From positions 8,370,001 through 8,434,000 of the forward strand of contig NZ_CP107853.1 in assembly GCF_036013525.1 (NCBI RefSeq): a DNA stretch of 64,000 nucleotides, given 5' to 3'. Below, one piece after another: positions 4,669 to 57,851 of this stretch. The notes beneath the pieces are model-generated. The model ran no database searches. It saw nothing but the letters and a program-made list of their open reading frames with translations, and was not told the DNA's origin. Origin of the DNA: Nonomuraea sp. NBC_00507. Its GTDB lineage: Bacteria > Actinomycetota > Actinomycetes > Streptosporangiales > Streptosporangiaceae. A program made the translations under genes and the position numbers. The first letter of the stretch is position 1, and each line of letters opens with the position of its first letter.

Positions 4669-4740
4669 GGGGCGGCGGGACCGGCACGTCGGCACAGCCA
4701 CCTGCCGGTAACGGCCGACGGGACGGGCACGTCGGCAAGG

Positions 4741-5670
4741 TCACCGGCCGGGCCCGCCGCCGCTGAGGAGTTCGGCAGGCACGATGAGGGCCTGGGCGCG
4801 CCCGGCGGGGAAGGCCCAGACGTGCTTGCCGGCCGCGATCACCAGCGCGAGCGGCGCCTGCAGCCCGAGCCTGATCACGCGCAGCGCGGCGCCGGCGACA
4901 GGGGCCAGCGCGAACAGGTCACGTCCGCCTCCCGCCAGGACCCCGTTGGCGCAGACGAGGAACGGCACCGGCCCGTCCGGCGCGCCCACGAGCCGCCTCG
5001 GCTCGCCCGACCAGGCTGAGACGCGCAGCAGCCCGCCCCGCACGCTGATCCACAGGGAGCCGGCGCACACGGCCATGCCGCCGCGCTCGCGCCGCCCCAG
5101 GTCGATTTCCCTGGGACCGCCCCGCAGCAGGGTGTCCCGTGTCGAGGTCCACCACAGCCGCCCGCCCTCCACGGCGCACGCGTCCAGGCCGGGCAGTTCC
5201 ACCGGCTCCCCTAATCGGCCCGGTCCGGCCAGTCTGCGTGCCTGGCCGGCGGCGACGGCCCAGATCTCCCCGCCGCCGGCGAGCACCCGGCCGTCGAAGC
5301 GCGCGCTGGCCAAGGGCGCGCCGGCCGGATCCAGCCAGTACACCCGGTGGCCCGCGGTTCCGGCCAGGGTTCCCTGCAGCGTGCCCTCGGTCGCCGCCGT
5401 CCCCGCGAACGTCCTGGGCACCATCACCGTCTCCGGTAACGTTCCCGGCAAACCCGGCGTTCCGGCCACCGTCCCCGGCACCGCCGCCAGAGACAGGAGC
5501 TCCGGCGGGCGTGCCCTCTTGTGACCGCCGTTCTCCGGCCGGCGCAGCAGCGTGCCGGACGTCGTGTAGGCCCGTACTCCGTCGGTGCCCGCGCACCACA
5601 CGGTGGTTCCATCTGATGCGGCCGCCCGGATGGGGCGCGGCAGGTCGATCTTCGTGAGGGAGAGCTCCAT
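4741..5670 (-). CDS. Beta-propeller-like hypothetical protein with a Gly-Thr-rich insert
   Basis: This is 309 residues from ATG 5670 (MELSLTKIDLPRPIRAAASD). Repeated blade-like segments such as GTTVWCAGTDGVRAYTTSG, GEIWAVAAGQARRLA, GRLWWTSTRDTLLRGG and GSLWISVRGGLLRVSA suggest a WD40- or NHL-like propeller without a signal peptide. Between about residues 45 and 95 there is an irregular GT-rich stretch (GTVAGTPGLPGTLPETV, then FAGTAATEGTLQGTLAG) that interrupts the blade pattern and reads as low-complexity expansion. Function unknown. It is a single gene; about 220 bases without features separate it from the next gene. Confidence 0.6.
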   Translation of the reverse strand: MELSLTKIDLPRPIRAAASDGTTVWCAGTDGVRAYTTSGTLLRRPENGGHKRARPPELLSLAAVPGTVAGTPGLPGTLPETVMVPRTFAGTAATEGTLQGTLAGTAGHRVYWLDPAGAPLASARFDGRVLAGGGEIWAVAAGQARRLAGPGRLGEPVELPGLDACAVEGGRLWWTSTRDTLLRGGPREIDLGRRERGGMAVCAGSLWISVRGGLLRVSAWSGEPRRLVGAPDGPVPFLVCANGVLAGGGRDLFALAPVAGAALRVIRLGLQAPLALVIAAGKHVWAFPAGRAQALIVPAELLSGGGPGR

Positions 5671-5889: not shown

Positions 5890-7131
5890 ATGCGTGTTGT
5901 GGTGATCGGAAGCGGCATCGTCGGAGCGGGCGCGGCCTACTACCTGAGCGGCCGGGGCGCGGACGTGACGGTGGTGGACGGCGGCTACCAGGGTGAGGCG
6001 ACGCAGGCGGGGGCGGGCATCGTGTGCCCGTGGGTGGACCATCCCGAGGACGACGACTGGTACCGGCTCACCCGCGAGGGCGCCCGTCACTACCCGGACC
6101 TGGTGGAGGGGCTGGGCGAGGACATCGGGTACGCCAAGGTCGGCGCGCTGCTGGTGGCGGAGGACCCGGCGGACCTGGAGCCGGTGCGCGCCCTGCTGCG
6201 CCGCCGCCGTCCGGAAGCGCCGGAGATGGGCGAGGTCACGGACGTGGCGGACCCGGCCGAGCTGTTCCCGCCGCTGTCGGACACCCTGAGCGCGCTGCTG
6301 GTGCCGGGTGCGGCCCGCGTGGACGGCTGTTCGGTACGCGACGCGCTGCTCAACGCCGCCGTCGCCAGGGGCGCCGAGGTGCGTACGGGCGCCGCGCGGC
6401 TCACCCCGGACGGCGAGGTGATCGTGCACGCTCTGGCCGGCCCGTCCCCGACCGAGCCGTGGCGCCCGGCCGCGCCGCCCCCGCCCGCGGAGCCGCAGGG
6501 TGAGGTGAGCGGCGAGACCACGTCCTGGCGGCAGGCCGCGCCGCTCGTCCCCTCCGCCTCACCGCCCGCCACCATGGGGTCGGCCCGCCGGTTCGCCGGC
6601 GGGGGCGTTCCGCTCGAGGCCGACATGGTGATCGTCGCGGCCGGGGCGTGGACGGGCGAGGTGTGCCGGCCGCTGGGCGTGGAGCTGCCGGTGTTCCCGA
6701 GGCGGGGGCAGATTCTGCACGTGACGCTGGAAGGGATCGACACGGCGTGGTGGCCGATCGTGTTGCCCAGCGCCGGCCCGTACCTGCTGGGGTTCGCCGA
6801 CTCGCGGGTGCTGATCGGCGCGACCGTGGAGGACGTGGGGTTCTCGCCGCGCGTGACGATGGGCGGCCTGAATGAGCTGATCGAGGCGGGGCTGCGGGTA
6901 GCTCCTGGGTTGTTCGGGGCGTCGGTGACGGAGACGCGGGTGGGCCTGCGCCCGGTGTACGCGCCGGGCCCGGCCCTGATCGGCCCGCTGACCGACCGCG
7001 TGGTGGTGGCGACCGGCCTGTCCGCGTACGGGCTGACGGCGGGCCCGTTCACCGGCAGGATCGCCGCCGCGCTGGCCCTCGGCGAGGAGCCGCCCATCGA
7101 CGTCACGCCCTACGCGCCGCCCCGCGTGTGA
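5890..7131 (+). CDS. FAD-dependent D-amino-acid dehydrogenase/oxidase-like (DadA family)
   Basis: This 413-residue protein begins with the dinucleotide-binding motif VVVIGSGIVGAGAAYYLS and ends with the DAO-family segment VVVATGLSAYGLTAGPFTGR. In between are VIVAAGAWTGEVCRPLGVE and FPRRGQILHV, as in DadA and glycine/sarcosine oxidase proteins, which oxidise amines such as D-amino acids or N-methyl glycine to imines. A Pro/Ala/Ser-rich stretch of about 45 residues (about 190-238) is inserted in the middle and is not typical. ATG 5890 has no clear ribosome-binding site and could be leaderless. Confidence 0.8.
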   Translation: MRVVVIGSGIVGAGAAYYLSGRGADVTVVDGGYQGEATQAGAGIVCPWVDHPEDDDWYRLTREGARHYPDLVEGLGEDIGYAKVGALLVAEDPADLEPVRALLRRRRPEAPEMGEVTDVADPAELFPPLSDTLSALLVPGAARVDGCSVRDALLNAAVARGAEVRTGAARLTPDGEVIVHALAGPSPTEPWRPAAPPPPAEPQGEVSGETTSWRQAAPLVPSASPPATMGSARRFAGGGVPLEADMVIVAAGAWTGEVCRPLGVELPVFPRRGQILHVTLEGIDTAWWPIVLPSAGPYLLGFADSRVLIGATVEDVGFSPRVTMGGLNELIEAGLRVAPGLFGASVTETRVGLRPVYAPGPALIGPLTDRVVVATGLSAYGLTAGPFTGRIAAALALGEEPPIDVTPYAPPRV

Positions 7132-46425: not shown

Positions 46426-46539
46426 CGCGGGCGCCGCAACACTCCTCGGCGCGCTCTACGCCGCCCAGGGCGTCAGCCCTGATCACGCCGGCGGCGCAGC
46501 GACCAGGACCGGCCGCGACCGTTCCGGCTGCCCGCCGCG

Positions 46540-46814
46540 GGCATGCCGGCGCCGCTCGGCTTCGTCCTGGCCGGCATGCTCATCGTCTGGGCCGGGTGGA
46601 CGACGGTGTGGCACCTGTTTGCCGCCGTGGCCGTCGGGCCGTGGTGTTCGCGATCTCGCAGGCCCTTCTCCCGGCCGCGGACCGGCCGTGGCTGGACCGG
46701 CGCTGGTCGGTGTGGATGTGGCCGTCTTCGCGCCGGCGATCTACGCCTACGCGCTGAGCCGGCCGCTGCCGGGGGCGGATCGTGCGGCACTACGTAGAGG
46801 AAGCCGATGCGTGA
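46540..46814 (+). pseudogene. Relic: C-terminus of an APC-family amino acid permease with frameshifts
   Basis: The pieces lie in order in different frames: GFVLAGMLIVWAGWTTVWHL, then VVFAISQALLPAADRPWLD and WSVWMWP, then VAVFAPAIYAYALSRPLPG, then RIVRHYVEEADA with TGA at 46812-46814. Together they match the last TM helices and tail of APC amino acid permeases. At least three frame changes are needed, so it is a decayed gene. Only the C-terminal ~90 residues remain. Confidence 0.55.
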
Positions 46815-46838
46815 CGCGGCGACCCTGTTGCGCACTTC

Positions 46839-46857
46839 TACCGTATGGTGTACGGTA
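46839..46857. promoter_or_regulatory. Operator-like palindrome before the epoxide hydrolase
   Basis: TACCGTA-TGGTG-TACGGTA, a perfect 7-bp inverted repeat with a 5-bp spacer, lies 16 bases upstream of ATG 46873. It resembles TetR-family operators and is followed by another GTAC-rich stretch (GTACAGCGTACGAC). No regulator gene lies next to it. Confidence 0.6.
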
Positions 46858-46872
46858 CAGCGTACGACAACG

Positions 46873-48003
46873 ATGGGAGACACGTTGACCCTGAGTGACA
46901 TCCGGCCCTTCCGCCTGGAGACCGATCCGGCCGAGCTGGCGGACCTGCGTGCCCGGCTCGAGCGGGTGCGCTGGCCGGACGAGGTGCCCGGACTCGGCTG
47001 GAGCTACGGCGTTCCCCTCGCCCACCTCCAGGGCCTGGTCGAGCACTGGCGCACCGGCTACGACTGGCCCGCGGCACAGTCCGAGCTCAACGCGCACGAC
47101 CAGTTCGTCACCGAGATCGACGGGCAGCGCATCCACTTCCTCCACGTGCGCTGCGCCGACCCCGGCGCCCTGCCCCTGCTGATCACCCACGGCTGGCCCA
47201 GCTCCCCGGTGGAATACCTCGACGTGATCGAGCCGCTCAGCCGCCACTTCCACCTGGTCATCCCGTCCCTGCCGGGCTACGGCCTGTCCGGCCCCACCCG
47301 GGAGACGGGATGGGGCTCCAGCCGGATCGCCCGCGCCTGGCTGCAGCTCATGACCCTGCTGGGATACGAGCGCTTCGGGGTGCAGGGCGGCGACTGGGGC
47401 ACGTGGATCTCACGCGAGGTCGGCGTGCTGGCCCCCGAGCGGGTCGCCGGCATGCACGGCAACGGCATCATCTGCTTCCCCATCGGCGCCCCCGGCGAGC
47501 TCGACGGCCTGACCGAGGTGGAGCAGGAGCGGATGGCCTTCCGCGAGCGCTACCTGACCGGCCAATACGGCTACAAGCTCATCCAGTCCACCCGGCCGCA
47601 GACGTTCGCGTACGGTATGGCCGACTCCCCCGTCGCGCTGCTGGCCTGGTTCGCCAGCGTCTACCACGAGTGGAGCGACGCCGAGATCGACACCGACCGG
47701 CTGCTCACCACGGTCATGCTCTACTGGCTGACCAACACCGCGGGCTCGGCGGCCCGCTCCTTCGTCGAGACGCCCGACACCGACCAGGACACCAGCGTCG
47801 CATGGGAGCTCAAACCCGCGACGGTGCCGACGTCGATCTCGGTGTTCCCCAAGGACATCCTGCGGCCGATCCGGCGCTTCGCCGAGCGGGACAACAACAT
47901 CGTCGGCTGGGTGGAGCACGAGCGCGGCGGCACGTTCGCCGCGATGGAGCAGCCGGAGACGTTCGTGGCCGACGTCCGGGAGTTCTTCACGGCTCTGGGT
48001 TAG
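46873..48003 (+). CDS. Epoxide hydrolase family alpha/beta-hydrolase lacking the usual catalytic His
   Basis: This is 376 residues from ATG 46873 (or TTG 46885). The N-terminal epoxide-hydrolase domain (IRPFRLETDPAELADLRARL, GLGWSYGVPLAHLQGLVEHW) is present, as are the oxyanion motif HGWP (106-109), PSLPGYGLSG and the nucleophile Asp174 in GGDWG. The position that normally reads GGHFAA is RGGTFAAMEQP, so the general-base His is Thr354. The relic at 2537-2881 keeps GGHYAA. Activity is therefore doubtful or differently catalysed. The TAG stop is part of the 14-bp repeat that bounds the downstream island. Confidence 0.82.
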   Translation: MGDTLTLSDIRPFRLETDPAELADLRARLERVRWPDEVPGLGWSYGVPLAHLQGLVEHWRTGYDWPAAQSELNAHDQFVTEIDGQRIHFLHVRCADPGALPLLITHGWPSSPVEYLDVIEPLSRHFHLVIPSLPGYGLSGPTRETGWGSSRIARAWLQLMTLLGYERFGVQGGDWGTWISREVGVLAPERVAGMHGNGIICFPIGAPGELDGLTEVEQERMAFRERYLTGQYGYKLIQSTRPQTFAYGMADSPVALLAWFASVYHEWSDAEIDTDRLLTTVMLYWLTNTAGSAARSFVETPDTDQDTSVAWELKPATVPTSISVFPKDILRPIRRFAERDNNIVGWVEHERGGTFAAMEQPETFVADVREFFTALG

Positions 48004-48014
48004 TACACCGAGAT
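48001..48014. repeat. Left attachment-like repeat of the genomic island
   Basis: TAGTACACCGAGAT, identical to 55131-55144. The TAG is the stop codon of the epoxide hydrolase. See the island entry. Confidence 0.8.
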
Positions 48015-48350
48015 TTGATATCGCTGCTACGCCGAGCTGCACATGTAGCGTCAGAGTGCTTCTGAGCTGCTGTCGCGCGTTTCACGGGTTGTCGACGTTC
48101 CTCGGCGTTTCACATCCTCGTGTGCCCTCCTTGTGCCCTGGAAGGGAGAGGTGTACTTGTGATCGATCGCCGATCTCCGAGCAACTGACCTTGCTGGGCC
48201 ATACTCTCCCTGATACGACGATCGCGAGTGCCGCTGGCCAGGTGCCATGAGGGGAATCGTCCCAGCTTGTCATGGCTTGGATGAGCATCGCCACTCCAAG
48301 AGTTATAGACTTCTACCTCTTGTATCACTGTGTGACCACAAAGCGTCCCT
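48004..48350. other. Left end of the island, non-coding
   Basis: No convincing gene is seen here. It holds the left repeat and a GTGCCCT-CCTT-GTGCCCTG motif at 48122-48140 that recurs inside the right end. A short open frame with LLGHTLPDTTIASAAG vaguely recalls an integrase box but cannot be supported. Confidence 0.5.
48122..48140 (+). repeat. GTGCCCT-N4-GTGCCCTG motif, left copy
   Basis: The same pattern in the same orientation occurs at 55055-55073. Doubled 7-bp boxes near both ends of an integrated element are what recombinase arm-binding sites look like. Function is inferred only from position. Confidence 0.5.
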
Positions 48351-48752
48351 ATGGGCGCTACGCTGCCTGGCGTGCAGGATGAGCTGCGGATCGTAGTGCC
48401 AGGATGCTCGGACCACCCCGAGCAGACACAAAAGGCGCTTGCGGACATATTGGCTAAATACGGGGCAAGCCTCCTTGAGGAAGCTGATCGCGTCGCAACA
48501 CCGTTACATACCGGGCCCGGCAAGGTGATGATCACATCAGCCATGATCACCGACATGGACCTCTGGATGCGGAAGGGCTATGTTCGTCCGCGAAAGAGCA
48601 GCAAAGAGAAGGCCATTGCGGGGGTTGGGTTGTTGGCTGTATACCTGGGTGGACTTTTTACTAATAATATTACTGTAGCGTGGGGCGCAGTTGGCTTTGC
48701 CGTCTGCGCCTTGCTGTTTTTCTGGACTCACTTTTGGGGGTCCGAATCATGA
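48351..48752 (+). CDS. Small membrane protein, first gene of a putative two-gene module
   Basis: This 133-residue protein has a soluble N-terminal domain (about 1-80: DELRIVVPGCSDHPEQTQKA, then LADILAKYGASLLEEADRV) and two adjacent hydrophobic helices at about 88-104 and 107-127. It has no signal peptide. I do not recognise the family. GTG 48372 is an alternative start. Its last codon overlaps the next start (ATGA), so the two proteins are made together. The partner is also a two-TM membrane protein with a HEPN-like tail. A role as sensor, anchor or antitoxin for that partner is possible but not shown. Confidence 0.6.
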   Translation: MGATLPGVQDELRIVVPGCSDHPEQTQKALADILAKYGASLLEEADRVATPLHTGPGKVMITSAMITDMDLWMRKGYVRPRKSSKEKAIAGVGLLAVYLGGLFTNNITVAWGAVGFAVCALLFFWTHFWGSES

Positions 48753-49483
48753 ATAACAAGAATGAGCGCAACACTCCCTCGCCGAGTCTCAGCCCTGAGG
48801 CTAGGCATGTACTTGAAAGCTCTTTGAGTGAGCTTCGGAGAGATATCATCGCGCTAGCGACCAAGGAACACTTTGCTCGTCTTGCCACTGATCCAGAGAT
48901 CAGCGCTCCCGAGATTACCAATGCGCTTAGAGCGCTAAATCTCGTCGTTGATCCGCTGTTCGAGAAGCGCAATTTCAAGAGCCGAAGGATCAAATGGTTT
49001 GGTTTGGCGGCCACGGTTGCCATAGTCTCCATTCTCGTACTTGGCCAGCTACTCCGTCTCGGACTAGAGTCCGCATCAGCTCTCGCAGCCCTCATTGGTG
49101 TTGCCGGTCTAGTAATTAGCATTCATGGCCTATGGGCGACTCGGAAAGAACTGCAAAAGGCCGAAAAAGCTACCGAGCTCTCCCTGAATGCGTACCGCGA
49201 GGCCGAGTTTATTCACACTTGGGTAGAGCTAGAAGCAGCTCTGCGCAGCTTGGCCGAGAAAGAGGGTGGGGGCGAAACAAAAAGACTTTCTCCTTCTTGG
49301 GTACTGCGCAATTATATGCAGGTAAACCTCTCAGAAGCAGAGGCAGGTGAGCTTATGGACATCCTGCAGGCGCGAAACGAAATTGTCCATTCGACAACCC
49401 GTCCACTTCCCGGCAGAAATCTCGATATGCTAACCCGACGGCTAAAATATTATGTGGAAAAGGCGGAAAGTCTGCTTACTTAG
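48749..49483 (+). CDS. Membrane protein with HEPN-like R-x4-H motif
   Basis: This is 244 residues from ATG 48749 (GGGGGTCC upstream). There is an N-terminal helical part (HVLESSLSELRRDIIALATK), two TM helices (about 83-103 and 108-130) and a C-terminal helical domain. The C-terminal domain starts with a charged helix (RKELQKAEKATELSLNAYRE) and contains Arg209-x4-His214 in LQARNEIVHSTTRP. R-x4-H at the start of a helix is the catalytic motif of HEPN RNases found in toxins and anti-phage effectors. Assignment to HEPN rests on the motif and helical context only. It is co-translated with the small membrane protein. Confidence 0.6.
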   Translation: MNNKNERNTPSPSLSPEARHVLESSLSELRRDIIALATKEHFARLATDPEISAPEITNALRALNLVVDPLFEKRNFKSRRIKWFGLAATVAIVSILVLGQLLRLGLESASALAALIGVAGLVISIHGLWATRKELQKAEKATELSLNAYREAEFIHTWVELEAALRSLAEKEGGGETKRLSPSWVLRNYMQVNLSEAEAGELMDILQARNEIVHSTTRPLPGRNLDMLTRRLKYYVEKAESLLT

Positions 49484-49800
49484 TTCTGGTGAGCTCGTCG
49501 CGCATTGGCGGACAACGGTGCGGTCCCTTCGGTGTAAACTCGTGACGTGGAGGTCGTTAGGTGTCGCTGCGGTGGTCAGGCTGCCGATGCAGATCGCGCA
49601 TAGGCGCCGCTGGTCGATGAGGTTGCTGCACTTAGGTGCTGCACAGGGCGGCGCCGCGAGTGAGATCCGGATCTAGCGACGTGCGTGCAGGCGCCGGCGG
49701 AGCGAGTTGGTGGGCTTCGACCGGCGCTTTGCCGTCTCTCCGATCTTTCGGTAGGCGTAACGTCGGCCTTGTAGGCCGGGGAGTGGGAAGGCTGTGCGGC
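49484..49800. other. Non-coding stretch with a repeated 120-bp segment
   Basis: No gene is supported. Positions 49524-49644 are a diverged copy of 51027-51146, sharing CCCTTCGGT, AACTCGTG, GGTCAGG and GGTTGCTGCACTT-x-G-x-TGCTGCA in the same order and spacing. The remainder shows nothing recognisable. Confidence 0.5.
49524..49644 (+). repeat. Diverged 120-bp non-coding repeat, copy A
   Basis: It aligns over its full length with 51027-51146, with about the same length and conserved blocks at both ends (TCCCTTCGGT start, GGTTGCTGCACTT near the end). The two copies flank the TIR-like gene and the short frame at 49801. Confidence 0.5.
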
Positions 49801-49941
49801 ATGAGCGACGTGGAGCAGATTGCCGCGTTGCTGAGGGAGCGGAATGGTGTCGACGAGAAGATCGCAGCGGCTATCCAGCGCCCCATGAACGCGGGCCATC
49901 TGGGCGAGTGGATCGCGGCGCAAGTCTTTGGAATCGACTGA
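49801..49941 (+). pseudogene. Short frame, N-terminal remnant of a larger protein
   Basis: Forty-six residues: MSDVEQIAALLRERNGVDEK, then IAAAIQRPMNAGHLGEWIAA and QVFGID. The pattern RERNxxDxxIAxxxxRPMxxGHLGEWIAA matches, from memory, the first part of a family of about 150-200-residue actinobacterial proteins of unknown function. Here a TGA follows QVFGID and no clear continuation is seen, so it looks truncated or frameshifted. It may still be expressed as a small protein. Confidence 0.45.
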
Positions 49942-50017
49942 CAGCAAGCGGAGCGGTTGGGCTTATACCGCGGCGGCTATGGAACGGATTACCCGTCTCG
50001 AAATACCAAGGACGATT

Positions 50018-50803
50018 TTAGCTAAACTCTCTTTTTAGAGTAGCCAGTACGTCTCCAAATATTTCACGAATGCTATTTTGGTATCGCAGTTGTTGAATGC
50101 CGTCCATATTAGAAAAGACCTCACAGCCTTCTTGTATGACGGCTAGTGCGCGATGGAATCCGAGCTTACCCTGGAAGAGCCCCGCTTCATGCACTACATT
50201 CTGCCGAGCTCGCCAGTTACCGTCGGCGGTTTCATCTTCTCGCGCCATTACGAGCAGAGCGAATGCAGCCTCGCTGAGCATCTCTTGAAGGATGTCGCGA
50301 ATAGTATGACCGCCGCGCGCTCCAGTTTCGTAAGCGATGACGCGATAGCCATGGTGATCCTCTAGGTGATCCTTGAGATCGCGCCACGCACTATCCCGTC
50401 CATGCCCAATGAAGATCGAGGGCGGTTCTGGAGTTGGCCTAGTCTCGGCTATTCTGCATTTCTCTAAGGCCTGTTCGAATACGTCAAAAACCCTCTCGAT
50501 CTCCCCACGCGTAGGGGCCGATATGTCAACTCTTGCTCCGCTCTGTTCCCATGTGACGTTCAGATGGGCAACCTGGCCTTCGTTTTTCCTGTAGAAATCG
50601 ACTTTGAAGTAATATAGACTTCCGTCTTTGCGGCAGTCTGCAGCGAATTCGTTGAAGTCGTCGAAGTTCCAAGACTCCTGGCCATTATATGTCCTGAGCG
50701 TGCCGTATCGAGAAATTCTTTCATCAACCAAAAGCCTATCAAACGCCTCTTGGATAACCTCCGGCGTAAACTTAACACTTCCGTACCCTTTGCTCTTTTC
50801 CAT
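50018..50803 (-). CDS. TIR-like predicted nucleotide-binding protein (PF10137 type)
   Basis: This is 261 residues from ATG 50803 (GGGAGAG upstream). The N-terminal ~120 residues are an unassigned alpha/beta domain. The C-terminal domain (about 128-260) has the TIR-like set: IFIGHGRDSAWRDLKDHLED, then VIAYETGARGGHTIRDILQE and FALLVMAREDETADG. RQNVVHEAGLFQGKLGFHRA contains the Glu (about 206) equivalent to the NADase Glu. It ends with the conserved IREIFGDVLATLKREF. Related domains are effectors of CBASS/Pycsar-type immunity that deplete NAD. No cyclase gene is adjacent, so a stand-alone role or another trigger is inferred. Confidence 0.75.
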   Translation of the reverse strand: MEKSKGYGSVKFTPEVIQEAFDRLLVDERISRYGTLRTYNGQESWNFDDFNEFAADCRKDGSLYYFKVDFYRKNEGQVAHLNVTWEQSGARVDISAPTRGEIERVFDVFEQALEKCRIAETRPTPEPPSIFIGHGRDSAWRDLKDHLEDHHGYRVIAYETGARGGHTIRDILQEMLSEAAFALLVMAREDETADGNWRARQNVVHEAGLFQGKLGFHRALAVIQEGCEVFSNMDGIQQLRYQNSIREIFGDVLATLKREFS

Positions 50804-51325
50804 TAATACTCTCCCTGTGGAGTAGTTTTGGCGACTAGATTGAGCTTCTCGTACATATCTTAACCGGATCACCAAGGAGACACTCTCCGGAGGAAACGGA
50901 GGTCCTGCTAGCCAGCACGGGCAGCGTGCGACCGAGCGCAGGGTTGTGTGGCGGTGCAGCGTACCCGTCCTTGACGTCCTTCTTGGAGATGCGGCAGGTC
51001 ATAGCACCTCAGTAGACGGATACTGATCCCTTCGGTTCGAACTCGTGGCACGAGGGTCGGTGAAGGTCGTTAGAGAGGTCAGGACCGCTCGGGAGATCAG
51101 TGACGGCCGATGGTGGTCAAGTAGGTTGCTGCACTTTGCTGCTGCATCTCACCGGCATGATCTCTTGGCAAGATCGACGTCCTGCGTAGTATCCATGGAC
51201 TAATCCCCTTTCGGGTGGTTTTGGCTATATTGCCTCCTTTCTCTCGGTTTGCGGTTATTGTGCCGATCTGTCGGAGTCTAAAATTTCGGTAGCCAAAGAC
51301 GAAGATTGCGCGAGATAGTAGCAGC
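50804..51325. other. Non-coding stretch between divergent island genes
   Basis: About 520 bases without a supported gene. It contains promoter regions for both flanking genes and copy B of the 120-bp repeat (51027-51146). No tRNA or clear terminator was found. Confidence 0.5.
51027..51146 (+). repeat. Diverged 120-bp non-coding repeat, copy B
   Basis: Counterpart of 49524-49644. The most conserved part is TAGGTTGCTGCACTTTGCTGCTGCA at its right end, itself an internal repeat of TTGCTGCA/TGCTGCA. Confidence 0.5.
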
Positions 51326-52294
51326 ATGACTGATACACCATCATCGCTGGAACCCCAAGGATCAACCACAGGAACAGAATCACTGATTAATGCGGCTGAA
51401 GAACTTGTAGACAGAGCCATCGCTTTCATGGAGCCATATACAGAAATCACTTGGAAGGCTGGGGTTGAGAATCCAAAAAAGCTTGCTGCCGCCTTTTGTG
51501 TCAAGCGACAGATCGATGGCATTCGGGCTGCAATTACTCTCGCGCGGGCAGGGCTTGGACATATGAGTGCGTCATTTATACGTCCTGCATGTGAAGACTT
51601 GTTCTGGCTGTCATATCTCGACAAGCTTGATGCGCAGGTAGCGAAGCGGCTGTTGGGCGCCATGACAGCCCTGGATGCCTCTCGCAGCGTCATTGCACAG
51701 CAACAGTATAGCGGCAAGAAGACGATGACTAGGTTGGGTTTCCCCGCCAAGTTTGTTAAATATAGTTACGCGAACAAACTGCAGAGTGAGGCGGTCTTAA
51801 AGGAACTAAGTGGGACCCTTGGTTGGCCAAACACGGATGAAGGAGTACTGCCTCCTACTGCGTGGGTGGCTGCCCAAACTGGAAATAGCAAGTTGTACGA
51901 CTTTCTATATTCGGCCACGTCGCGCGTGGTCCACTTCTCAATGGGAGAGGTGGCACGACGGGGGTGGAGTATCCCTGAAGACGGCGATCCTCAGAACTCG
52001 ATAATTGACTTTAATTCCCCTAATCACCTAAATTACCGAACCGACTTTGCTTTGTATTGGTGCTGTCACCTGTTCGCACTTACATGGCCGACGGCACTTT
52101 CGTGCCTCGAAGCCGACCTAGAAGGTGCGGACGAAGGAGTGCTAGACGTGTATACAGAGGCTCTTAAGAGGTTGGCTAGCCACGGCAAGGTTCCAGTAAC
52201 CTTGCCGTCGGAGTTTAACTTGCGCACTACAGCGAGAGCCGGTGTAAATTCTAGTAACGCAAAGCGGGCAAACTCAAGAGGGAGTAGAGGCTGA
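51326..52294 (+). CDS. Unrecognised island protein, mostly helical
   Basis: This is 322 residues from ATG 51326. The predicted fold is largely alpha-helical: INAAEELVDRAIAFMEPYTE, RQIDGIRAAITLARAGLGHM, then SASFIRPACEDLFWLSYLDK. A segment SATSRVVHFSMGEVARRGWS resembles the Arg/His stretch of DUF5677-like proteins but does not have R-x4-H spacing. The codon use is AT-richer than the flanks. The last 40 residues are basic and probably disordered. No operon partner is evident: the upstream gene is divergent and the downstream gene convergent. Confidence 0.6.
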   Translation: MTDTPSSLEPQGSTTGTESLINAAEELVDRAIAFMEPYTEITWKAGVENPKKLAAAFCVKRQIDGIRAAITLARAGLGHMSASFIRPACEDLFWLSYLDKLDAQVAKRLLGAMTALDASRSVIAQQQYSGKKTMTRLGFPAKFVKYSYANKLQSEAVLKELSGTLGWPNTDEGVLPPTAWVAAQTGNSKLYDFLYSATSRVVHFSMGEVARRGWSIPEDGDPQNSIIDFNSPNHLNYRTDFALYWCCHLFALTWPTALSCLEADLEGADEGVLDVYTEALKRLASHGKVPVTLPSEFNLRTTARAGVNSSNAKRANSRGSRG

Positions 52295-52479
52295 AGCGAA
52301 CGTTTCCTGGATTGCACCGTCCAGACTTCAGCTTGGCTTTCACGGGTGACAATTCTGGTCATCTCCTCGTCGAGCAGGCGTAGCTTCCTTTCGCCTCCAG
52401 GATTTTGAAGATCGAGTCATGTTGAGGTGTGTGGGGCTGATGGTGGCGGCTGCGGTGTAGCGCTGGGTGATAACCGCAG

Positions 52480-54105
52480 TTAGGCGGCCAGGTGGGCGTC
52501 GCGAGCGAGGGCGCCGATGGCGGCTTGGTAGGCGCGTGAGGCGGAGCGTAGGCGGCTGTCGGCCGGTGGATCGGGATCGGTGATCTGGGTGAGGCCGGGG
52601 ATCAGGAATCGCTGGGCCAGGTGGGTGATGAAGAGTGCGTGCGCGATCCCGGTGGGGGTGACCTGGTAGGTGCGGCTGTGCGGGATGCGGGTGATGATGC
52701 CGTGGGCGCGGAGTCTGCGTAGGTCGTAGCTGATCTGGCCGCTGGTCATGGCCTCCGGGGCGAGCCCGAGTAGGGGCGCGAGGTGGTGGCGCAGGAGGCG
52801 GTTGGTGAAGCCTGCGGGCAGCAGGGCCAGAGTGCAGCAGACGTTGAGCAGGGCGCGGACGCGGGGATCGGTGAAGCGTAGTCCGGGGATGCGGGTTCCG
52901 GTGTCGGTGATGACCGGATCGATGATCGCGGCCAGCGCGGCGGCTCCGTCGGCGGGATCGTGGCTGATGCATTCGACGTCGAGCAGACGCCGGTTGGCGG
53001 TGAAGCCGACCTGCTGAAGTGCGGGCAGGTTAGTCAGCTCTTTGCCGATGCCGAAATCGCGGGTCTGGTTGATGGTGGTCTCGGTCCGTAATGCACGTCC
53101 TTCCTTGAGGTACTGCTTGACCTGGGTCTTCTTGTAATACAGATAAAGGTAGGGGTCGACGCCCTCGGTGATGATCTGGGTGCGGAAGCTGCCCGGGGTG
53201 GCGCCCTTGCCGTGGTGGCGGCGGATCTGGCGGTCGAAGACGATGCTCACCTTGTCGGGACGGCCGATGTCAATGTTGTCGCGGATGAGCTGGTCGAAGA
53301 AGATCCGGGCAGAGCGCGGGCGGTCCATCACCTGGGTGGTGGACAGCTCGATCTGCTGGATGGAGGCCTGCCAGCGGTAGTCGGCCGCCTCGTCCTCGGC
53401 GGTGAAGGGGTGGGGCAGGCGGGCCAGCCACTTGCCGAGGAAGCGGTAGATCGCCTCCTGGCTCAGGCCGTCACAGATCCTCTGGATCGCCTGCGGCTCC
53501 TCGGCCGCGACGATGGCGTTGTCGGCCGCGGTGAAGCCGATCCCGGCGCGCTCGCACTGGCGCTTGGCGTACTCGTGACCGTTGAGGTAGACCTGCCCGT
53601 TGAACGGGAAGTAGCCGCAGAACTTGACGTAGAACGGGCCGAAGTCACGATCGAAGCCGTAGAAGTACCAGTGGTTGACCAGCGCGGGCTCCTTGGCCAG
53701 CCACGGATAGGACTTACCGGTGCCCGCGTCGCGGCGCTGCCGGGTCCGCCAAATGCGGGTCTTTTCCTGGGCCCGCCCGACGAACAGGATCCGTTCGCCG
53801 CCGTTGTGTCCGGCCAGGTATTGCTTGGCGATGTCGTCTTTGCGCTGCTTTTTGGTGAAGTGGACCAGGTCCAGATCGCGGGCGGCGAGCCAGTGGTGAA
53901 TGTCGGCGGCGAAGTGCTCGGTCATCGGGTGCATCAGCGTCGAGGAGACGAAGCGGTCGCCGCGGTGGTGGCAGAAGAAGCCATGGATGCCCGAGCCGTA
54001 CTGCAGTCGAGGCTGCCGGAAGGACAGCAGCATCCGGTCCACGCACCGGATCTCGAAGAGAGCGTGATCGGACAACACCTCGGCAGCGGTACGCGGTAGC
54101 GTCAT
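52480..54105 (-). CDS. Large protein of unknown function, C-terminal winged-helix-like region
   Basis: This is 541 residues from ATG 54105 (GGAGCC upstream). Distinct conserved-looking blocks are LSDHALFEIRCVDRMLLSFR, LVHFTKKQRKDDIAKQYLAG, ILFVGRAQEKTRIWRTRQRR, FDRDFGPFYVKFCGYFPFNG and LRTETTINQTRDFGIGKELT. The last ~120 residues look like a winged helix (SGQISYDLRRLRAHGIITRI, then RTYQVTPTGIAHAL), so nucleic-acid binding is plausible. From memory, similar proteins occur in many bacteria without an assigned function. GC is higher than for the left island genes, suggesting a separate origin. Confidence 0.6.
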   Translation of the reverse strand: MTLPRTAAEVLSDHALFEIRCVDRMLLSFRQPRLQYGSGIHGFFCHHRGDRFVSSTLMHPMTEHFAADIHHWLAARDLDLVHFTKKQRKDDIAKQYLAGHNGGERILFVGRAQEKTRIWRTRQRRDAGTGKSYPWLAKEPALVNHWYFYGFDRDFGPFYVKFCGYFPFNGQVYLNGHEYAKRQCERAGIGFTAADNAIVAAEEPQAIQRICDGLSQEAIYRFLGKWLARLPHPFTAEDEAADYRWQASIQQIELSTTQVMDRPRSARIFFDQLIRDNIDIGRPDKVSIVFDRQIRRHHGKGATPGSFRTQIITEGVDPYLYLYYKKTQVKQYLKEGRALRTETTINQTRDFGIGKELTNLPALQQVGFTANRRLLDVECISHDPADGAAALAAIIDPVITDTGTRIPGLRFTDPRVRALLNVCCTLALLPAGFTNRLLRHHLAPLLGLAPEAMTSGQISYDLRRLRAHGIITRIPHSRTYQVTPTGIAHALFITHLAQRFLIPGLTQITDPDPPADSRLRSASRAYQAAIGALARDAHLAA

Positions 54106-54398
54106 CACAGGCTCCGGCTGGAGGCTCGGCCGGCAACGGCCACCCGATCGCTGCGAGCGGTGAATGAACGGACACATTGTGTACCGTCTTAGCCGCCAGC
54201 CGGGGTCATTCCGCGGATCCGTAACTCGTTCTCCATCTACGGACCTCAGCCCGCACCGGGCATGTCTCGTCGGGTTGGGGCGAAGCCCCGGTGGGCATTA
54301 AGCCCGACGAGGTGACCATCCGCGGCAGCCGCCACACCGAGCCGCCCGTACCCGTCTGTCACACGTAGCGGATCGTCTGCCGCAAACCCGGCTTAACA
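54106..54398. other. Non-coding stretch
   Basis: No supported gene. It holds the upstream region of the 541-residue protein on the minus strand and a block of GC-rich sequence with many stops in all frames. Confidence 0.4.
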
Positions 54399-54695
54399 GT
54401 GGACGAGCAAATCAACCAAATTCTTGATCGCTTGTACGCCCACGCTGATCGGATCGGTGAGCTGGCCACCGAGCTCGACCAGATCGACGGGAGCCCCGGC
54501 TCTAGCGTCCTACAGGTCGTACGGGTCTTCGAGCACCCCGACGGCGAGGACGCGGACCTCACCAGCCCAGCCGAAGGCCTGCAGATACTACCTGGGCAAC
54601 ACCAGCTCCTCGGCTGGCACCTCGACGCCAGGGCATTGGACTTCCTCCGACGCGCTCACGCGGAGCTAGATATCGACGGGTATGCCTACGGATAG
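54399..54695 (+). CDS. Small hypothetical protein
   Basis: Ninety-eight residues from GTG 54399: an N-terminal helix (MDEQINQILDRLYAHADRIG, then ELATELDQID), then a short alpha/beta part ending HLDARALDFLRRAHAELDID. It is unrecognised. The upstream ribosome-binding site is weak. It lies between the 541-residue protein (divergent) and the integrase remnant. Confidence 0.45.
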   Translation: MDEQINQILDRLYAHADRIGELATELDQIDGSPGSSVLQVVRVFEHPDGEDADLTSPAEGLQILPGQHQLLGWHLDARALDFLRRAHAELDIDGYAYG

Positions 54696-54851
54696 TGAGG
54701 CCTCAAGCGCAACGCGCTGGTGTGCTCATACGAGCACAAGACCACCAACCCATAGGACCAACAGCTACGCGCCCGCAAGGTCGACATTGCTCTCTAGGCC
54801 AACCCGTCAGCCATCAGCCAGGGGTCTGTCCAGCTGACGGCTCTGTCGCAA

Positions 54852-55073
54852 GTGTTCTTACACTCCCTCAGCCGGGACGGTTTGTTCAAACATCAGGTGG
54901 GGCTAGGCAGGTTCAGCCTCAAAGCTGGCGTATCCATCAAGGCCCTGGCCGAGTTCCTAGGACACGCCGATCCTGGGTTCACTCTCCGGACGTACACGCA
55001 TCTCATGTCATCGAGCGAAGATCGTATGCGTGAGGCGATCGAGAAGGCGTGGAGTGCCCTAGAAGTGCCCTGA
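54852..55073 (+). pseudogene. Relic: C-terminus of a tyrosine recombinase (phage-type integrase)
   Basis: From about 54910 the frame reads SLKAGVSIKALAEFLGHADP, then GFTLRTYTHLMSSSEDRM. This covers box II with the second active-site His/Gly and the nucleophilic Tyr (RTYTH). The N-terminal part and box I (Arg, HxxR) are absent; the preceding 25 residues are unrelated. The enzyme cannot be active. Its position 58 bases before the right repeat is that expected of an element's integrase. Confidence 0.8.
55055..55073 (+). repeat. GTGCCCT-N4-GTGCCCTG motif, right copy
   Basis: Same pattern and orientation as 48122-48140. It overlaps the last codons of the integrase relic. Confidence 0.5.
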
Positions 55074-55129
55074 TCAGTGGATGGCATCGGGTAGGAGGGT
55101 GATGACCAGGAACAACAGTCCTCTCCCTC

Positions 55130-56122
55130 CTAGTACACCGAGATGTGCGGGTGGTCGTAGTGGTTGGCGGTGGTGCCGCCGCGGTCCGTCATCGTGCGCC
55201 AGGCCCCGGTGCGGACGTGCCAGATGCGCTGCCGGTAGATGACGTACATGATGCCGAGGCGCTTGGCGTTCTTGATCGCCCAGTTGGCGATCTCGTCGCC
55301 GCGCTTGAGCTCCTCCGCCGACGGCAACGCGCCGCCCCGGCTCAGCATGAAGTCGCACGCCCGGCCCAGCGGGTGCTCGCCGCCGTCCTGGATGGCCCGG
55401 TAGCAGCCGATCCCGTACGGCACCTCGAACCGTTCCTGGATGAGCTGCCTGACCAGGGCCATCCGCGGCGTGATGTGATCGGGCCCCTGCGGCAACTGCG
55501 GCACGAACGTGCCGTCGGGCCGCAGGCCCGGTGCCTTGTACAGCTGGTCGATCTTGTCCCGGATGCGCTCGATCTGCCGCTCGGCCTTCTTCTTGCGCTT
55601 CTCCAGCTCGCCGACGGTGCGCTCGAGATCGCCGGCACGGGCGGCCGCCTCGTCCTGCGCCTGCTGCCGGTCGTCCCTGACCTTGGCGAAGCCGCGGAGC
55701 CTGGCGTCCTGGAGTGCGACGAGGTGCTGGACGAGCGCCATCCTGCCGAGGAGCCCGGACGGGTCCTGCGGGCCGGTCAGCAGGGCGACCTGGCTGGGCT
55801 CGGTGCCGGTGTACTGGGCGATGGCCATCGCCCTGAGCTCGGTGGAGTTCTGGTCGTAGACCTCCTGGGCGGCGGCCAGCTTCTCATGTGCTGATTTTTC
55901 GGCTTTTTCGGCCTTCTGGTGGGCGATGCGGCTGTTGTAGTAGTCGGTGATGAGCTTGTCCGACTCCTTCTGGAGCGCGGCGAGTTCGTTCTTGAGCTGC
56001 TTCACCGTGGGCTTGGGCTCGGCCCGCGCCGCGGCCGGCGCCGCCGCCAGGAGGGCGGCGGTGAGGACGGCGACCACCCCGCGCCGAGCACCCGACCGGA
56101 AGGTGGGGGACGCAACCGCCAC
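55130..56122 (-). CDS. Secreted coiled-coil protein with a peptidoglycan-hydrolase-like C-terminal domain (ARB_07466-like)
   Basis: This is 330 residues from GTG 56122 (AAGGAGAA upstream). A signal peptide (AVLTAALLAAAPAAARAEP) is followed by two coiled coils (KQLKNELAALQKESDKLITD and LERTVGELEKRKKKAERQIE). The C-terminal domain contains GCYRAIQDGGEHPLGRACDF, IANWAIKNAKRLGIMYVIYR and TTANHYDHPHISVY. It resembles the domain seen in mycobacterial and Streptomyces coiled-coil cell-wall proteins. The His/Asp set could bind metal as in LAS peptidases, but this is an inference. Its last 4 codons form the right end repeat of the island. Confidence 0.8.
   Translation of the reverse strand: MAVASPTFRSGARRGVVAVLTAALLAAAPAAARAEPKPTVKQLKNELAALQKESDKLITDYYNSRIAHQKAEKAEKSAHEKLAAAQEVYDQNSTELRAMAIAQYTGTEPSQVALLTGPQDPSGLLGRMALVQHLVALQDARLRGFAKVRDDRQQAQDEAAARAGDLERTVGELEKRKKKAERQIERIRDKIDQLYKAPGLRPDGTFVPQLPQGPDHITPRMALVRQLIQERFEVPYGIGCYRAIQDGGEHPLGRACDFMLSRGGALPSAEELKRGDEIANWAIKNAKRLGIMYVIYRQRIWHVRTGAWRTMTDRGGTTANHYDHPHISVY
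55131..55144. repeat. Right attachment-like repeat of the genomic island
   Basis: TAGTACACCGAGAT, identical to 48001-48014. It is the 3' end of the secreted coiled-coil protein gene, which it keeps intact. Confidence 0.8.
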
Positions 56123-56234
56123 GCTTCTCCTTATTGAGAGCCGCAGGGCAGGTTCCGGTCAGGAGGTAATCAGGTCCGGCGTCGCCCTCTATCCGACGCT
56201 CGATAGTAGGGGATCGGATGCGGCGGCGTGCAAC

Positions 56235-57851
<1,617 letters not shown>

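Follow-up and report, generated by a model that had tools for sequence, protein, structure and literature searches.

Actinomycete integrative and conjugative elements (AICEs) have been the subject of surveys (PMC3218068, PMC9513070). An AICE carries genes for an integrase, an excisionase, a replication initiator and TraB between its attachment (att) sites; it is integrated at a specific site, attB, where short direct repeats flank it. Protein-coding genes are less common as attB but are known in this role, being used by 14 of 51 elements, as against 36 for tRNA genes (PMC9513070). There are also reduced forms: a defective AICE (DAICE) is defined as having traB while int and/or rep are missing, and a traB-less remnant has been described at a reused tRNA-Arg accretion site (PMC9513070). 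Cis-mobilizable elements (CIMEs) are flanked by the attL and attR of an integrative and conjugative element (ICE) family and are without functional recombination or transfer genes; they derive from an ICE through deletion and are mobilised in trans or by accretion with a related element. In Streptomyces, TR1 lies beside TR2 (PMC8369830) and XSAM1 beside pSAM2 (PMC4891641). The present analysis concerns an island of ~7.1 kb, at positions 48001-55144 of a 64,000-nucleotide stretch of DNA from Nonomuraea sp. NBC_00507 (contig NZ_CP107853.1, positions 8,370,001 to 8,434,000; this whole stretch is called the window). The island lies at the common end of two convergent genes, encoding an epoxide hydrolase and a secreted coiled-coil protein. 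With a probability of roughly 85%, it is a site-specifically integrated, decayed relative of the AICEs, which resembles a CIME and whose attB is the 3′ end of the coiled-coil gene.

The 14-bp sequence TAGTACACCGAGAT stands exactly at 48001-48014 and at 55131-55144, and has no other exact copy in the 12.9-Mb genome. In a shuffle control allowing up to two mismatches, 1 of 100 shuffles gave at least two matches, and the whole genome has five copies with one mismatch. The left copy begins with the TAG stop codon of the hydrolase gene (48001-48003), and the coiled-coil protein takes its final residues, ISVY, from the right copy. Comparison with relatives (below) shows that a tyrosine integrase crossed over within this 14-bp core at the 3′ end of the coiled-coil gene, so that the hydrolase stop codon was retained by the left copy and the last coiled-coil codons by the right copy. 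An earlier note on this DNA had proposed an integrated island because it saw the exact repeat at both ends, with these same contributions of the two copies to the two genes, and had taken frequent occurrence of the 14-mer in the genome as an argument against integration; the repeat and its coding role are as it had described, and the 14-mer is rare. No tRNA was found in the window by ARAGORN.

A comparison of relatives at the junction of the two genes, which the same note had proposed, revealed the uninterrupted site. The coiled-coil protein was searched for in 59 genomes (the window's own included), with matches in 52, and the loci of the 29 best relatives (L009-L037) were read for up to 1.5 kb beside the gene, or less at contig ends. 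In G017, a genome of the same genus (locus L009), nothing separates the hydrolase gene from the coiled-coil gene, the junction reads GTTAGTACACCGAGATGTG, and the locus aligns with the joined flanks of the window over 1,991 bp at 92.9% identity with one gap opening. The G017 coiled-coil gene ends in TAA, overlapping the hydrolase TAG, which is the arrangement of stop codons that had been predicted for the pre-integration site. Of 54 genus genomes searched, counting the window's own, 14 have the degenerate site TAGTASACSGARAT, but two exact 14-mers close together are present only in the window genome and in G075. The latter is marked as the same species as the window genome, and its two 14-mers, 18.7 kb apart, enclose a different and complete element. 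The end of the coiled-coil gene of G060, another genome of the genus, has the same 14-mer and adjoins a different integrase (49% identical over 203 amino acids); thus, attB is reused by more than one element. Within the stretches fetched for L009-L037 there is no integrase of the G075 kind, and the interior of the island was not seen in relatives without the repeat, in searches that covered its ends and single genes. A single attB that is empty, or holds a complete AICE, or holds a decayed relative of one, all inside one genus, is a clear natural experiment.

The element in G075 is a pSAM2-type AICE. It has an intact integrase of 403 amino acids (Phage_integrase, 6.3e-26), and further encodes an HTH_17 Xis-like protein, RepSA (4.3e-160), an FtsK/SpoIIIE TraB and a DUF2637 SpdB-like protein, i.e., the whole AICE gene set, which the island does not have. 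The island resembles this AICE in its attB, integrase C-terminus, right end and arm-site spacing, and differs from it in having no integrase core, Xis, RepSA, TraB or SpdB. When the G075 proteins were compared with the island by tblastn, the integrase (~51 residues) gave the only significant match; Xis, RepSA, TraB and SpdB gave none, the next match having an E-value of 0.23. Thus, the tyrosine-integrase C-terminus noticed earlier just inside the right end is real, but it is only a stub. The idea of an integrated island is supported, and to it can be added this loss of the integrase and the kinship with AICEs, which the earlier note had not named.

At the DNA level, the identity between the island and the G075 element is 98.2% over the right 223 bp and 74% over the left 141 bp; counted more finely, 191 of 193 positions agree in the right arm and 91 of 127 in the left. 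For comparison, the chromosomal identity between the window and G075 is 97.7% for the hydrolase gene, 99.2% for the coiled-coil gene and 98.8% for the joined flanks. With the right end at 99% and the left arm at 72%, the block is more probably a hybrid, to which two relatives (e.g. in tandem) contributed by recombination or deletion, than a simple internal deletion of the G075 element. It is possible, though rather doubtful, that an element much like the G075 AICE instead gave rise to the island by simple deletion in place, with the cargo gained later. The shared attB, the nearly identical right arm and the identical spacing of the arm sites suit such an origin, whereas the divergence of the left arm does not, given how similar the joined flanks are, and beyond the two ends the longest match between the two elements is 123 bp at 70%.

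Both elements have, near each core, a pair of GTGCCCT motifs 11 bp apart, at +121/+132 from the left core and −77/−66 from the right one. From their position and conservation, these pairs are putative arm-type integrase sites. Ten other integrase loci were inspected, of 18 fetched (L047-L064), and GTGCCC pairs 11 bp apart were found at the integrase 3′ end in three (L048, L050, L053). The island has kept both att cores and both putative arm-site pairs, while no xis, rep or tra is recognisable and the integrase is a stub; for these reasons it is regarded as CIME-like and presumably inert on its own. Its cores and right end are those of the G075 AICE, as befits the flanks of a CIME, and functional recombination and transfer genes are absent as judged by comparison with the G075 proteins only. 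Excision would need a G075-type AICE, which might either provide Int and Xis or integrate beside the island. In this respect the island is like TR1 with TR2 (PMC8369830) or XSAM1 with pSAM2 (PMC4891641), in which att-flanked cargo depends on another element, but here no complete element lies in tandem, and the helper-type element is found in another strain at the same locus. Similarly, the island is like the DAICE and the remnant of PMC9513070 in being the decayed form of an AICE, in a place used again by other elements; as it has no TraB match and the DAICE definition requires traB, it is nearer to the traB-less remnant. The island and the G075 AICE together provide matched att sites for tests of trans-mobilisation in a rare actinomycete.

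It is improbable that the island is still mobile by virtue of some other integrase that the host encodes. The att cores and arm pairs remain in place and tyrosine recombinases matching the G075 integrase occur at 16 places in the host (the stub and split pieces included), but, leaving the stub aside, the match with the lowest E-value (4e-17) has 32% identity and the closest short piece has 46% over 54 residues, probably too distant for the same site specificity to be expected.

Several observations weigh against the account of a decayed, CIME-like relative of an AICE. The divergence of the left arm does not suit a simple deletion origin; the empty site adjoining the hydrolase gene was found in only one of the 29 loci, and in another species; and no integrase close enough to serve as a helper is present in the host genome. 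With regard to the role of the arm sites, the left side of the G075 element has one more GTGCCCT, at +354; seven of the ten integrase loci have no pair, including the G060 locus with the same attB (L055); and the window has further GTGCCC pairs within 15 bp in other places, one on the plus strand and two on the minus strand.

A remnant of a prophage or phage satellite is very unlikely. The tyrosine integrase stub adjoins an att site, the TIR protein of the island (Table 1) matches PHROGs phrog_16442 (2.2e-31), and the protein o2 matches, below threshold, a family of actinobacterial holins (0.0018; 18.7 bits, cut-off 28.4); against this, the complete relative at the same site has genes of the RepSA, TraB and SpdB types, and no phage structural family was found among the island proteins scanned (Pfam and PHROGs, part of the open reading frames). 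A chance repeat or an insertion-sequence event can be dismissed almost entirely, since, short as 14 bp is in a window with 30 exact 14-mer direct repeats 5-10 kb apart (an uncontrolled count), there are an empty site in G017, a complete G075 AICE at the same repeat and an integrase stub at the end.

Table 1. Features of the island and of the two genes beside it (positions in the window)
Feature	Position	Strand	Remarks
Epoxide hydrolase gene, left neighbour	46807..48003	+	Pfam EHN 2.4e-34; stop codon inside attL
attL core, 14-bp direct repeat	48001..48014	.	exact repeat; empty site in relative
Left arm	48015..48141	.	91/127 identical to G075 AICE; GTGCCCT pair at 48122 and 48133
o1, 133-aa protein	48351..48752	+	hydrophobic stretches by eye
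o2, 244-aa protein	48749..49483	+	hydrophobic stretches and RNEIVH (Rx4H) motif by eye
Repeat A	49525..49644	+	DNA and profile matches; match to model R1 by construction
TIR-domain protein, CAP12/Pycsar-effector type	50018..50803	-	putative start at an internal ATG
Repeat B	51027..51147	+	same family and orientation as A; match to R1 by construction
DUF5677 protein, 322 aa	51326..52294	+	Pfam PF18928 1e-8
Nested ~1.9-kb repeated unit	52379..54290	-	ends approximate; end motif TCGTCGGGTTGGGGCGAAGCCCC at 54267
o5, 541-aa protein	52480..54105	-	very large unnamed family
DUF4279 gene fragment	54399..54695	+	Pfam PF14106 2.1e-7; adjoins nested unit
Tyrosine integrase C-terminal stub	54918..55073	+	51 residues, 96% to intact homologue
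Right end common with G075 AICE	54922..55144	.	98.2% over 223 bp; GTGCCCT at 55054 and again at 55065
attR core, 14-bp direct repeat	55131..55144	.	exact repeat
Secreted coiled-coil protein gene	55130..56122	-	attachment site at its 3′ end

Several pieces make up the mosaic interior, namely an orphan gene pair, a TIR gene between relic att-like repeats, a DUF5677 gene and a nested unit. It is AT-richer than the rest of the window (GC 0.72 outside the island): the GC content is 0.54 at 48015-52379, the AT-rich left half that had been noticed before, 0.657 at 52380-54290 and 0.612 at 54291-55130. In the orphan pair, the start of o2 overlaps the stop of o1 by four bases. No family match was found for o1 in Pfam, PADLOC, NCBIfam or PHROGs; o2 has sub-threshold family matches only and, at E ≤ 0.001, no relative but itself among 7193 candidates. 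Its Rx4H motif presumably recalls that of HEPN RNases. The TIR protein matches Pfam PF10137 (4.4e-26), PADLOC PDC-S35 (1.6e-16) and, in the PDB, Cap12 (9lmq, 4.6e-5). The cargo appears to consist of accessory defence genes, which, from the TIR homology and the relic att-like repeats, were probably delivered in part by other elements. The island suggests how defence-like cargo may stay in a chromosome once an AICE loses its engine.

Repeats of the A/B family (~120 bp) also occur twice inside the G075 element, one copy of which is 69.9% identical to repeat B over 123 bp; repeat B was not among the matches listed for a DNA search with repeat A. That search found A-type repeats in 7 of 54 genus genomes (some matches being shorter than 40 bp), and a profile of 15 copies (R1), A and B among them, found A/B-type repeats in 24 of 150 family genomes, own included, many of them weak. 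In the alignment of the 15 copies (A1), five abut a tRNA 3′ fragment, recognised by a T-loop pattern. The repeats A and B may therefore be relics of att sites (core plus arm) of a second, tRNA-targeting integrase family, and if so, the cargo was probably assembled through more than one site-specific integration. Against tRNA targeting it can be said that no tRNA fragment abuts A, B or the two G075 copies, that ARAGORN found no whole tRNA in 13 repeat loci, and that the pattern is present in four of 28 further loci, many of them weak (L109-L137 without L132, which is the same place as L082). The possibility that A and B are mere promoters was set aside because of the five copies that abut a tRNA fragment; as for a known RNA, Rfam gave no match at E ≤ 1 for positions 46500-56500.

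As a whole, the island belongs to a kind of element already known; its most novel part is the nested unit, which deserves study of its own. The unit has a GC-rich palindromic motif on its 5′ side, and its protein, o5, is predicted to have a TBP-like domain plus a winged helix; the modelled TBP-like domain is perhaps Rep_trans-like and, as such, a candidate nickase. Residues conserved in the family are D23 (93/93), E253 (91/93), Y332 (93/93), K334 (92/93) and E342 (93/93), but 39 columns of the same alignment are invariant. Compared with Rep_trans initiators and Rep-Arvir (PMC6499999, PMC13107129), o5 may be alike in its predicted TBP-like fold and in the order in which its conserved tyrosine, lysine and three acidic residues stand; Rep-Arvir has a DNA-binding MarR-like winged helix, and a winged helix is predicted for o5 as well. 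There are also differences: in RelSt3, the acidic residue of motif III stands at Tyr+5, a position unmatched in o5 (where a glutamate stands at Tyr+3 in 90/93), the nested unit looks like a dispersed repeat, unlike a replicon or an ICE relaxase, and PF02486 was not among the 11 families matched at E ≤ 1 by 52 members of the o5 family, in searches where the HMMER filters drop most weak matches.

The o5 of the window had no Pfam match at E ≤ 0.1, none in NCBIfam, PADLOC or PHROGs, and none among PDB sequences at E ≤ 1; a profile search of the PDB gave one match, with an E-value of 1.2, and the o5 domain model had one match among viral models at E ≤ 0.001, to an uncharacterised protein. A scan of genome contigs with o5 gave three loci. 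Besides three small pieces, the host genome has a single full copy, which means that the unit is not multicopy there. No empty site for the unit was recognised among the matches listed for two Rhodococcus plasmid queries (15 of 45 and 15 of 27 records, match rows only). A literature search for Rep_trans with transposons or insertion sequences gave no Rep_trans-type insertion sequence in the titles and abstract openings among the matches listed, and one on new insertion-sequence families matched nothing. Tentatively, and with the odds somewhat against it, the nested unit may belong to an unrecognised, very abundant transposon family, with a Rep_trans/TBP-fold single-strand nickase plus winged helix and a short GC hairpin at its end, which would move by a rolling-circle or single-strand mechanism that is neither HUH nor DDE, and which inserted in the DUF4279 gene of the stranded AICE relative. 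In any case, o5 points to an abundant protein family that is nameless in the libraries searched, and may represent a new transposase class.

Some minor observations concern the att site and the two relatives. A paralogue of the coiled-coil gene (53% identical; G000:C1:8546750-8547696, L072) has at its 3′ end one of the five one-mismatch copies of the 14-mer, TAGTAGACCGAGAT, which is thus one base off the att core and a possible secondary attachment site. The different integrase of G060 lies at L067 1-1136, and the contig ends within the element. Beside attL in G075 (L065/L066), there are open frames for a 186-amino-acid protein that is restriction-endonuclease-like by eye and a 402-amino-acid protein with an Rx4H motif. 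A family of short repeats, GGTCATCTCCTCGTCG(A/G)GCAGGC, is common to the two elements, at 52343-52384 of the window and at 4684-4823 and 6349-6484 of the G075 element.

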